This document shows, piece after piece, positions 2,865 through 32,726 of a DNA stretch of 39,399 bases; position 1 is the stretch's first letter, and every line of letters begins with the position of its first letter. The DNA lies in the NCBI GenBank assembly GCA_947302765.1, contig CAMYWN010000003.1, positions 1-39,399 of the forward strand, written 5' to 3'. Source of the stretch: an uncultured Candidatus Saccharibacteria bacterium. GTDB lineage: Bacteria > Patescibacteriota > Saccharimonadia > Saccharimonadales > Saccharimonadaceae. A model generated the notes under the pieces. The model saw only the letters and a program-made list of their open reading frames with translations. It was not told the origin of the DNA and made no database searches. A program made the position numbers and the translations under genes.

Positions 2865-2866
2865 AA

Positions 2867-2966
2867 TTCGAGTTAAAAGCCGGCATCTCGGCGTTTTTTT
2901 GCTCGCTCGATCATAAATCGCACTTCGCAAGAATAAAACACCGATCTGTCGGCTTTTATTCTCAAA
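2867..2966 (+). other. Type-I structured hairpin element after tRNA-Arg
   Basis: Imperfect inverted repeat of about 36-40 bp per arm (2867-2902 with 2927-2966), with an inner stem CGAT/ATCG (2908-2911 with 2917-2920). The inner stem is flanked by unpaired TCGCT and CACTTCG. The left arm contains GCCGGCATCTCGGC followed by seven T, so it can also end the tRNA transcript. The same loop motif and layout recur at 32257-32364. Confidence 0.75.
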
Positions 2967-2994
2967 TGAGAAATCATAACCGAATCTAGCGATG

Positions 2995-3015
2995 CGACTC
3001 GCACCCGGGTCACCA
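2995..3015 (+). repeat. 21-bp direct repeat, copy 2 of the tRNA-Arg 3' end
   Basis: Perfect copy of tRNA-Arg positions 56-76 including CCA, with no tRNA body in front of it. It ends 7 bp before the -35 of the next gene. Confidence 0.95.
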
Positions 3016-3055: not shown

Positions 3056-3907
3056 ATGCTTAAGGTCAAGAATTTGGTCTGGATGGTTTTGTTTCTAGTG
3101 GTGACGGTCGGAATGGGGGTAAGCGTGTATTTCTCAATCAGAGGAGAAGTTGATTATGACTACGTGGTTGAAACAAATGCTTTTTTTGCACCGTTTGAAT
3201 TTTATGAAAACCGACAAATCGTAGGAGTGGATATAGATATCGTTGATCGTGTGGCAGAAAAAACGCAAAAGAAAATCCAGATTAAGAACGTGGAATTTGA
3301 TGTGATTATCGACAATGTCGAGGCGGGGCGGATTGCGGATGCAGGAGCGGCTGGACTCACTATCACGCCAGCTCGAGAAGAGAAAGTAAATTTCACGATT
3401 CCCTATTATACTTCAGTGCAGTATGTGATCTTCGACCGTAACATGCCACCATCGCTACGGGATGACCATGTAGTATGGGAAGCTTTAGAAGGAACGAGGT
3501 TGGGGTCGCAGATTGGAAGTACTGGTTACATTTTCGTAGAAGACGAGATCGAAAACGGAGTATTGTCTGGGACTAATACCACTATCAAAGGCATCGATTC
3601 GCATCAGCTAGCGGCGGATTCCATCAAAGCACATATTATAGATTACGCAATCGCCGATGAGTTGGTCGCAAAATTTATCGTAGAAAAGAATCCCGAATTT
3701 GATGCTCTGCCGCTTTATTATTCTGGTCCAACTCGGGAGGAGGATTACCCGGTGGAAGAGTCTTATGCGATAGCGGTAAACAAAGAGCGGACGGAGCTAC
3801 TTGAAGCATTCAATGAAGTATTAGCGGAAATGTCTACTGAGGACGCTGAGGGTGTTTCTGAAATTGATCGACTAGTTTTAAAATATATGGGGTTATCCAA
3901 TGAATAG
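3056..3907 (+). CDS. Amino-acid ABC transporter substrate-binding protein (family 3)
   Basis: 283 aa. An N-terminal membrane segment (VWMVLFLVVTVGMGVSVYF, about residues 8-27) is followed by an SBP_bac_3 fold. Visible landmarks are APFEFYENRQIVGVDIDIVD, the GLTITPAREEKVNFTIPYYT segment and a late LLEAFNEVLAEM helix. There is no lipobox cysteine, so it seems tethered by an uncleaved helix. It captures a polar or charged amino acid for the permease and ATPase encoded downstream; the exact ligand cannot be read. Start: the ATG at 3056 has a -10 box 6 bp upstream and no Shine-Dalgarno. The last bases, ending at the stop, are duplicated 146 bp downstream. Confidence 0.88.
   Translation: MLKVKNLVWMVLFLVVTVGMGVSVYFSIRGEVDYDYVVETNAFFAPFEFYENRQIVGVDIDIVDRVAEKTQKKIQIKNVEFDVIIDNVEAGRIADAGAAGLTITPAREEKVNFTIPYYTSVQYVIFDRNMPPSLRDDHVVWEALEGTRLGSQIGSTGYIFVEDEIENGVLSGTNTTIKGIDSHQLAADSIKAHIIDYAIADELVAKFIVEKNPEFDALPLYYSGPTREEDYPVEESYAIAVNKERTELLEAFNEVLAEMSTEDAEGVSEIDRLVLKYMGLSNE
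3888..3906 (+). repeat. 19-bp direct repeat, copy 1 (end of binding-protein gene)
   Basis: TGGGGTTATCCAATGAATA covers the last codons up to the stop. It matches 4034-4052 with one mismatch; the second copy also reads as LSNE followed by a stop. Confidence 0.9.
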
Positions 3908-3912
3908 TATCA

Positions 3913-4033
3913 TGCTAGCCAGAATAGTGCTTTTCGGAGACGGGGTTCCTCGCGCCCGCCGTCGCGGGGCTCGGACCCCTCATACCTCGGTCGTAACCTC
4001 CGGAAGCTCCTCAAAGCACTATTCTTGGCCAGC
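3913..4033 (+). other. Type-II structured element, copy A
   Basis: Outer arms near 3913-3939 and 3998-4033 pair (AGAATAGTGCTTT with AAAGCACTATTCT). Inside, GGGGT/ACCCC closes a GC-rich hairpin, and a small GGT-CGTA-ACC stem follows. The layout suggests a branched structure. Homologous to copy B, which follows directly. Confidence 0.7.
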
Positions 4034-4052
4034 TGGAGTTATCCAATGAATA
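4034..4052 (+). repeat. 19-bp direct repeat, copy 2
   Basis: TGGAGTTATCCAATGAATA, a copy of the end of the binding-protein gene. It separates elements A and B. A third, weaker relative (GGGGTATCATGGATA) covers the ribosome-binding site and ATG of the permease near 4186-4200. Confidence 0.85.
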
Positions 4053-4058
4053 ACCTTT

Positions 4059-4181
4059 ATCTAACCAGAATAGCACCTTTCGGGCACGGAGTCTCGCCAG
4101 CCCGTCTTCACGGGTGGCGAGCTCCTTCGTTCTCGCTAGCAAGCTCCGAAAGATCCCTCAATGTGCTATTTTGGTTAGATA
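4059..4181 (+). other. Type-II structured element, copy B
   Basis: The outer stem begins ATCTAACC and ends GGTTAGAT. Inside it, AATAGCAC pairs with GTGCTATT where copy A has AATAGTGC with GCACTATT, so two base pairs have changed on both sides. A near-perfect inner hairpin (CTCGCCA...TGGCGAG around CTTC) and a small GCT-AGCA-AGC stem match copy A in position but not in sequence. Confidence 0.72.
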
Positions 4182-4193
4182 TGGAGGGGTATC

Positions 4194-4898
4194 ATGGATA
4201 ATTTCTTTTCGAAGCTCGTGGAGCTATTTAGTACACAGGAATATATCGATTCCCTACTGCATGGGTTCTTACTAACAATTCAAGTTTCATACTTTGCGCT
4301 TTTGATTGGGCTGGTACTTGGGACTGTGATTGCTTTGGTTGATACAGCCAGACGGTCAAAATGGATGGTGCTACCTAAGTTTATTTGCCGAGTATATGTA
4401 GGGATTATCCGCGGAACGCCGATGGCTTTGCAACTCTTTATCATGTTCTTTGTAATTTTTGCGATTAAAGGATTCCCTAGTATCATCACGGCGATTATCG
4501 CCTTTGGATTAAACTCGGCGGCCTACATGGCGGAGGTGATTCGGGGTGGGATATTGTCAGTAGATAAAGGTCAGACGGAAGCAGGATTAGCGCTCGGGCT
4601 ATCGAACTTGACGATTTTCATGAAGATTGTGGCACCGCAGGCAATTAAAAATATCATCCCAGCGCTCGGGAACGAAATCATAACCGTACTAAAGGAAACC
4701 GCGATTGTCAGTATGGTAGGAATGTATGATCTCAATATGGCAGCAAAAGACATCGGCTCTGGGCAAAACATGGCGAGCTATATTGTACCGATGTTCGTAG
4801 CGGCACTATTCTATCTTGCGACAATTTATCTTATCACGTTTATTGTGAAGCGAATTGAGAAAGGCCTCAGGCGGAGTGATTTAAGGACGGAGGAATAG
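4194..4898 (+). CDS. Polar amino-acid ABC transporter permease (HisM/GlnP type)
   Basis: 234 aa, the usual length. Membrane helices are visible from about residues 20-45, 60-80, 90-110 and 190-220. The conserved ATPase-contact (EAA) loop reads EAGLALGLSNLTIFMKIVAP, ending in the expected Gly-rich turn and proline. It also has the RGTPMALQLF segment typical of this family. It forms the membrane channel with the ATPase encoded immediately downstream (its TAG stop touches the next ATG). A GGAGGGG site precedes the ATG, unlike the leaderless first gene. Two structured repeats separate it from the binding protein and may lower its expression relative to that gene. Confidence 0.92.
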   Translation: MDNFFSKLVELFSTQEYIDSLLHGFLLTIQVSYFALLIGLVLGTVIALVDTARRSKWMVLPKFICRVYVGIIRGTPMALQLFIMFFVIFAIKGFPSIITAIIAFGLNSAAYMAEVIRGGILSVDKGQTEAGLALGLSNLTIFMKIVAPQAIKNIIPALGNEIITVLKETAIVSMVGMYDLNMAAKDIGSGQNMASYIVPMFVAALFYLATIYLITFIVKRIEKGLRRSDLRTEE

Positions 4899-32180: not shown

Positions 32181-32221
32181 AGATGAAAAAATAGCGAGCT
32201 TGCTCGGTATTTTTTTATCTT
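32180..32221. terminator. Bidirectional terminator-like hairpin after tRNA-Gln
   Basis: Two 20-nt arms pair at 18 positions around TT, with A-rich left and T-rich right arms, GCGAGC/GCTCG at the tip. It can end the tRNA transcript. Confidence 0.8.
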
Positions 32222-32241
32222 GCGACCGGTCTTGGATGAAT

Positions 32242-32259
32242 ATCCTGCCGGTCCAGCCA
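32242..32259 (+). repeat. tRNA-Gln 3'-end repeat, copy 2
   Basis: ATCCTGCCGGTCCAGCCA, an 18-bp copy of the tRNA end without a tRNA body. Its last bases form the base of the next hairpin. Confidence 0.93.
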
Positions 32260-32364
32260 GACTAGCTAAAAGCCCCTAATAAGGGCATTTTTCTTGCCTC
32301 GCTCGTCATTAGACGCACTTCGGCAAGAGAAAATACCCTTCTAGGGGCTTTTAGTTTAGTCTGG
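32257..32364 (+). other. Type-I structured hairpin element after tRNA-Gln
   Basis: Arms 32257-32298 and 32322-32364 pair over about 42 bp with few mismatches (CCAGACTA ... TAGTCTGG at the base). The loop TCGCT, inner stem CGTC/GACG, then CACTTCG has the same unpaired bases as the element after tRNA-Arg, while both stems differ in sequence and stay paired. Confidence 0.8.
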
Positions 32365-32416
32365 TTAGCGATTGGCAGGATGAAAACCGTAGGTTCGGAC
32401 GTCGTAGGAGGTGAGT

Positions 32417-32446
32417 AAAAATCCCAAATCTTGTTTGGGATTTTTT
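32417..32446. terminator. Terminator-like hairpin in the third repeat interval
   Basis: AAAAATCCCAAA pairs with TTTGGGATTTTT around a short loop. It is followed by a GC-rich stretch (about 32450-32486) with no recognised content, then repeat copy 3. Confidence 0.7.
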
Positions 32447-32486
32447 GAACCGACGCCCGGCGTAGTGGGCGAGCGCAGCGAGGCCA

Positions 32487-32507
32487 CGAATCCTGCCGGT
32501 CCAGCCA
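32487..32507 (+). repeat. tRNA-Gln 3'-end repeat, copy 3
   Basis: Perfect 21-bp copy of tRNA positions 56-76, 327 bp from the tRNA's own end. Confidence 0.95.
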
Positions 32508-32726
32508 GAGCGTTTTCAATTGCATTAAAACACTTTTTGCTTTTATCTTCCATATTCCCCTCACTTTCTAGCATTTTAAGATGCTTAGTAGTCATTTATA
32601 CTGCTACTCTAAGCCAAAATATAAATAAGCGGGTGCTAAGAACGGTTTTACTCATATTTTTATTTTAGCATACGTTTTCGGGGCGATTTTATGGCGCATG
32701 TGCTTTCATAATAATGAGTTTTCTCG

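Follow-up and report, generated by a model that had tools for sequence, protein, structure and literature searches.

Two members of a dispersed palindromic repeat family of ruminant-gut Saccharibacteria at the junction of an amino-acid ABC transporter operon

Layout and pairing of the transporter junction

The window analyzed here is a 39,399-nucleotide stretch from an uncultured Candidatus Saccharibacteria bacterium; among named organisms, its nearest relatives are Candidatus Saccharibacteria of the ruminant gut. Its + strand carries open reading frames for an amino-acid ABC transporter substrate-binding protein (SBP; positions 3059 to 3907, stop codon at 3905 to 3907) and for an ABC permease (4194 to 4898). 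Homologues of the SBP occur in 53 of 100 genomes of the genus, and in most relatives the permease start overlaps the SBP stop. In the window, two homologous imperfect palindromes of approximately 120 bp each, here called copies A and B, lie between this stop and this start. Copy A (3914 to 4033, + strand) is composed of a 5′ arm (3914 to 3939), a first core hairpin (3942 to 3979), a second core hairpin (3985 to 4003), and a 3′ arm with one extrahelical base (4007 to 4033). Copy B (4058 to 4181, + strand) has arms at 4058 to 4084 and 4155 to 4181.

Each palindrome is preceded by a copy of the SBP gene end, as the earlier note had described. The first of these + strand junction repeats is the last 19 bp of the SBP gene itself (GGGGTTATCCAATGAATAG, 3889 to 3907), and the second (GGAGTTATCCAATGAATAA, 4035 to 4053) retains TTA TCC AAT GAA TAA, which encodes LSNE followed by a stop. 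The third, degenerate repeat seen in the same reading is also present and was compared with the empty junctions of relatives; it spans 4183 to 4205 across the ATG at 4194 (GGAGGGGTATCATGGATAATTTC) and contains a Shine-Dalgarno-like GGAGGGG besides the permease start codon.

A mechanical search for inverted arms retrieved 3921-3939/4007-4025 for copy A (89% complementary) and 4058-4084/4155-4181 for copy B (85% complementary). RNA folding gave z scores of −5.0 for copy A and of −6.7 (+ strand) and −7.1 (− strand) for copy B, with no shuffle equally stable. The two copies differ at several pairs that are changed on both sides. In the arms, AATAGTGC/GCACTATT of copy A corresponds to AATAGCAC/GTGCTATT of copy B, so that two pairs are altered on both sides; the internal stem reads GGGGT/ACCCC in copy A and GGAG/CTCC in copy B; and the small third stem (GGTCGTAACC versus GCTAGCAAGC) carries one pair altered on both sides. 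All three paired changes had been claimed beforehand and proved correct, which supports the description of two homologous structured units that carry compensatory changes and were made by gene-end copying. A covariance model (CM) built from 34 copies, with copy B left out of the training set, recovered copy B with 69.9 bits and an E value of 1.7e-19. Copy A matched with 110.1 bits, and a scan of the window with this model gave no further significant match.

Strong folds in this position would suit an RNA regulator or attenuator specific to this amino-acid ABC operon, present as a tandem duplicate and with its pairing selected in the mRNA. There is a precedent in Escherichia coli, where differential decay favors the binding-protein mRNA of malEFG and of several other ABC operons, and a protective intergenic structure in malEFG stabilizes this mRNA (PMC5927463). 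Against such a regulator, no intrinsic terminator (G+C stem followed by a T tract) was found on the + strand between 3700 and 4400, and a search of the region against Rfam gave no match above the gathering score. No promoter-like signal was found on the + strand at the junction. The distribution of the element and the substitutions in its arms, described below, also speak against this explanation, which is considered improbable. A local effect of the hairpins may still exist as a by-product. By analogy with malEFG, they could plausibly shield the SBP mRNA from 3′ decay and uncouple the translation of the permease; a GGAGG-like site precedes the now separate permease start in both genomes with a filled junction, that of the window and that of a relative, G134.

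The window also contains palindromes with copies of tRNA 3′ ends after tRNA-Arg and tRNA-Gln (2865 to 3012 and 32181 to 32510). The parallel that had been drawn between these loci and the transporter junction holds as a loose likeness, in that gene-end copies accompany palindromes in both. It does not extend to the hairpins, which were rejected as the same element because they form a separate family. The hairpin at 32250 to 32380 represents this second palindrome family, which occurs in 29 of 100 genomes of the genus; of 11 loci inspected, most adjoin a tRNA gene at its 3′ end.

Distribution and host genes of the family

Copies A and B are two members of a dispersed palindromic repeat of this ruminant-gut Saccharibacteria genus and not a locus-specific RNA element. 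Their core matches sequences within open frames of gatB and alaS in the same genome (NCBIfam GatB and AlaS), and a DNA search found matches in 67 of 100 genomes of the genus. The CM retrieved 12 copies in the genome of the window and 12 to 29 per genome in seven relatives. Across the class, CM matches were present in 83 of 294 genomes and in 5 of 127 genera: this genus contributed 70 (of its 76 genomes), and four further genera of its family contributed the other 13. The genomes compared are mostly or entirely metagenome assemblies. The view that the element belongs to this junction in particular is thus not supported; it is a genus-wide palindrome that resides mostly inside protein genes, and its presence in unrelated genes in either orientation counts against an RNA regulator of the transporter operon.

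The element spans approximately 110 to 130 bp. Two arms of roughly 22 bp, interrupted by one or two bulged single bases, enclose a branched core of about 72 bp formed by one long and one small hairpin. In a collection of 101 distinct copies, partly selected on core similarity, 71 are crossed by an open frame that continues for 30 codons or more to either side. These in-frame copies use all six combinations of strand and phase, and the Pfam and NCBIfam assignments of the host genes include UvrB, IleS, LepA, PheT, cysteine desulfurase, MnmA, Der, TatD, GatB, and AlaS. Since the frames stay open, the reading frames are most simply explained if the insert is translated within the host proteins.

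Many genomes carry the gatB insertion between one particular pair of conserved motifs, where other genomes have a short linker. This inter-domain site (L064 to L093) displays unlike palindrome types across genomes and the core in both orientations, which suggests a hot spot or repeated swapping of the core. Some element sites could be hot spots, or old insertions with a swapped core. Other core types occur within the same arm architecture (L298, 1553 to 1674; L309, 13832 to 13961; and L102 of genome G055), and this common architecture suggests a palindrome superfamily.

Insertion history and upkeep of the arms

The number of copies in orthologous operons, which the earlier note had proposed to compare, forms a series of zero, one, and two. 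In 29 orthologous SBP/permease junctions, which also weigh against an RNA regulator, the element is absent and the stop and start either overlap or are separated by no more than about 35 bp. G134 has a single element at the junction, with arms (AGCCAGAATAGTG) that are close to those of copy A in alignment. A further relative, G101, has only a spacer of about 30 bp, which may represent an empty or scarred site. This series makes it most likely that the ancestral junction was empty, that it received one element, and that the unit of gene end and element was then doubled in the genome of the window. The element would have inserted where the SBP stop and the permease start overlapped, with duplication of the junction allowing both genes to survive, and a subsequent tandem duplication of the unit would have given rise to copies A and B.

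A neutral tandem duplication of a chance palindrome, free of constraint, could account for the tandem arrangement of A and B and for the repeated gene end. It is contradicted by the genus-wide family, by the excess of compensatory changes at other loci (see below), and by the A-like arms of the single copy in G134, and can be regarded as extremely improbable. The copy series and the pairing conserved across the family likewise counter a recent tandem duplication without pairing constraint, which the earlier note had named as the finding that would refute it.

Presence and absence at orthologous sites were also observed in a trio of close species (about 94 to 96% alike), which differ in whether they carry three of the copies while the sites run on without other interruption. 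The filled sites are longer by 121 nt in an intergenic position (L309 versus L275) and by 105 nt (L298 versus L277) and 115 nt (L306 versus L288) in coding positions, and the flanks at these filled and empty sites are 84 to 97% identical. The polarity of the trio insertions is taken from the general absence of the element elsewhere and not from an outgroup at each site. Target duplications amount to approximately 9 to 19 bp at the SBP/permease junction (window and G134), and none is obvious at the clean intergenic site. A different contrast between two close species, an AT-rich repetitive stretch with a difference of about 190 bp (L309, 3121 to 3642, versus L294), seems unrelated to the element. 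In L031, two copies alike in core and arms lie about 670 bp apart (at about 1501 and 2173) within different flanks; they may stem from a recent local event, either a duplication or a transposition, in which the arms were included.

Mobilization by a Y1 (RAYT) transposase was rejected, because a search for the Y1 domain identified it in only 8 of 170 genomes of the genus, whereas the element is present in most; this enzyme is therefore not the general mover. The genome of the window is among the few that encode such a domain, which appears intact (L315; G000:C66:3430-3786).

The arms are complementary to a degree well beyond chance. Among the 101 distinct copies, the mean arm pairing score is 35, compared with 13 for random partners (random maximum of 22), and it is at least 20 in 98 copies, which thereby beat nearly all random-partner scores. 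Watson-Crick pairs make up 2291 of 2516 aligned arm pairs (about 91%), a value to which the arm alignment itself contributes by favoring pairing, so that the random-partner comparison is the fair measure. Fifteen pairs of orthologous copies, picked by arm identity only, showed 50 compensatory double changes, compared with a permutation mean of 21 and a maximum of 30 in 300 permutations, a comparison that leaves the common ancestry of the pairs uncorrected; an earlier count made with a pairing-biased filter had given 76. The core hairpin shows two-sided changes at 7 of its 17 predicted pairs.

Arm mismatches read on the + strand comprise 47 G-T/T-G and 71 A-C/C-A, with no wobble excess. The lack of a G-U excess does not indicate wobble-tolerant selection on RNA, contrary to the expectation for an RNA regulator, and the symmetry fits a cause at the level of DNA. 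This points to arm complementarity being upheld in the DNA. Two routes can be envisaged for this upkeep: the mobility machinery may need a folded hairpin, or template switching during replication may keep converting one arm to the sequence of the other.

The possibility was considered that the core alone moves and that the arms are made anew at each insertion by fold-back copying, as an inverted copy of the target DNA. Near-identical cores with very different arms occur at some loci, which shows that the two parts do not simply diverge in parallel; the outer arms of coding copies hold little sequence information and look random between loci, and one arm overlaps native codons in gatB. At the cleanest empty intergenic sites, however, neither arm is found in the target. 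Related copies at other loci are almost exactly alike in the core and recognizably alike in the arms, and a weak terminal consensus survives, T rich beside the core and A rich about 13 nt out. Fold-back generation was dropped after the clean empty sites and the arms common to related copies had been seen, and it is held to be a poor candidate. Concerted evolution of the cores within a genome was likewise set aside as weak, with a core identity of 0.86 within genomes and 0.83 between genomes.

The family is thus dispersed in the genus, is present or absent at orthologous sites, occurs in both orientations and mostly in frame in protein genes, and has covarying arms. The full account, in which copies A and B belong to a mobile, non-autonomous palindromic element that inserted, was duplicated, and has its arms maintained at the DNA level, is given a probability of about 0.8. 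Points that weigh against it are the rarity of the Y1 domain, the inconsistent target duplication, the near-identical cores with unlike arms, and the sites that could be hot spots or old insertions.

Relation to known palindromic elements

The nearest known kind is that of the Rickettsia palindromic elements (RPE), to which the Saccharibacteria family is likened for its behavior, without being counted as a member. Palindromes of 100 to 150 bp in Rickettsia and Wolbachia, which are also small-genome bacteria, occur in frame in conserved protein genes and in intergenic regions, and, as here, one gene site can hold different element types among relatives (PMC10969869, PMC3767692, PMC2229807). The Saccharibacteria element is similarly a dispersed palindrome of approximately 100 to 150 bp with many copies, 71 of 101 in frame in conserved protein genes. 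It differs from the RPE by its phylum (Patescibacteria), by its branched covarying core, and by its use of six strand and phase combinations instead of a conserved peptide. Rickettsia elements are also reported, in work cited in PMC6649704, to lose repeat identity over time as their arms decay, whereas here the arms stay complementary through compensatory change.

Bacterial miniature elements (MITEs) such as Correia/NEMIS, ERIC, and RUP are likewise short and non-autonomous, with terminal inverted repeats and a strong hairpin; the arms of the present element, about 22 bp long and well paired in 98 of 101 copies, correspond to such repeats. A search for the Y1 family gave no parent transposase for the element and target duplication does not seem constant, which may set it apart from MITEs, and most copies are coding, in contrast to MITEs. 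REP/BIME sequences, which are associated with the Y1 transposase RAYT, share bulged palindromes and dispersal, also between operon genes; the present element is much longer, and the Y1 domain is rare in the genus. The coding palindromes of Nematomorpha mitochondria resemble it as inverted repeats with matched arms, for which template switching has been proposed (PMC6649704), but are nearly perfect and locus specific, whereas the Saccharibacteria repeats form a dispersed family with a common core. Integron attC sites (RYYYAAC...GTTRRRY) were rejected as a match: the ends of copy B fit by eye (ATCTAAC/GTTAGAT), and those of copy A and of G134 do not.

No account of palindromic elements of Patescibacteria or Saccharibacteria was found in the open-access literature. 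A bolder and more doubtful proposal is that Patescibacteria harbor, in this family, a novel class of hairpin-borne mobile DNA that lies mostly in essential genes and lacks a dedicated transposase. Its arms would be kept matched by a DNA-level process, either template-switch conversion or a host recombinase that recognizes the folded strand, so that the sequence would be free and the structure inherited.

The Rickettsia elements were first described in 2000, and the origin, movement, and persistence of protein-coding palindromes have been a standing question since then. The Saccharibacteria family provides a second system of coding palindromes, which appears to be independent and is sampled far better (174 genomes of one genus). 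Filled sites can be set against empty ones, hot spots and both orientations occur, and the covariation of the arms can be measured, so that the question of maintenance becomes directly testable. The presence of the family also means that selfish DNA is tolerated within essential genes of the streamlined Saccharibacteria genomes.
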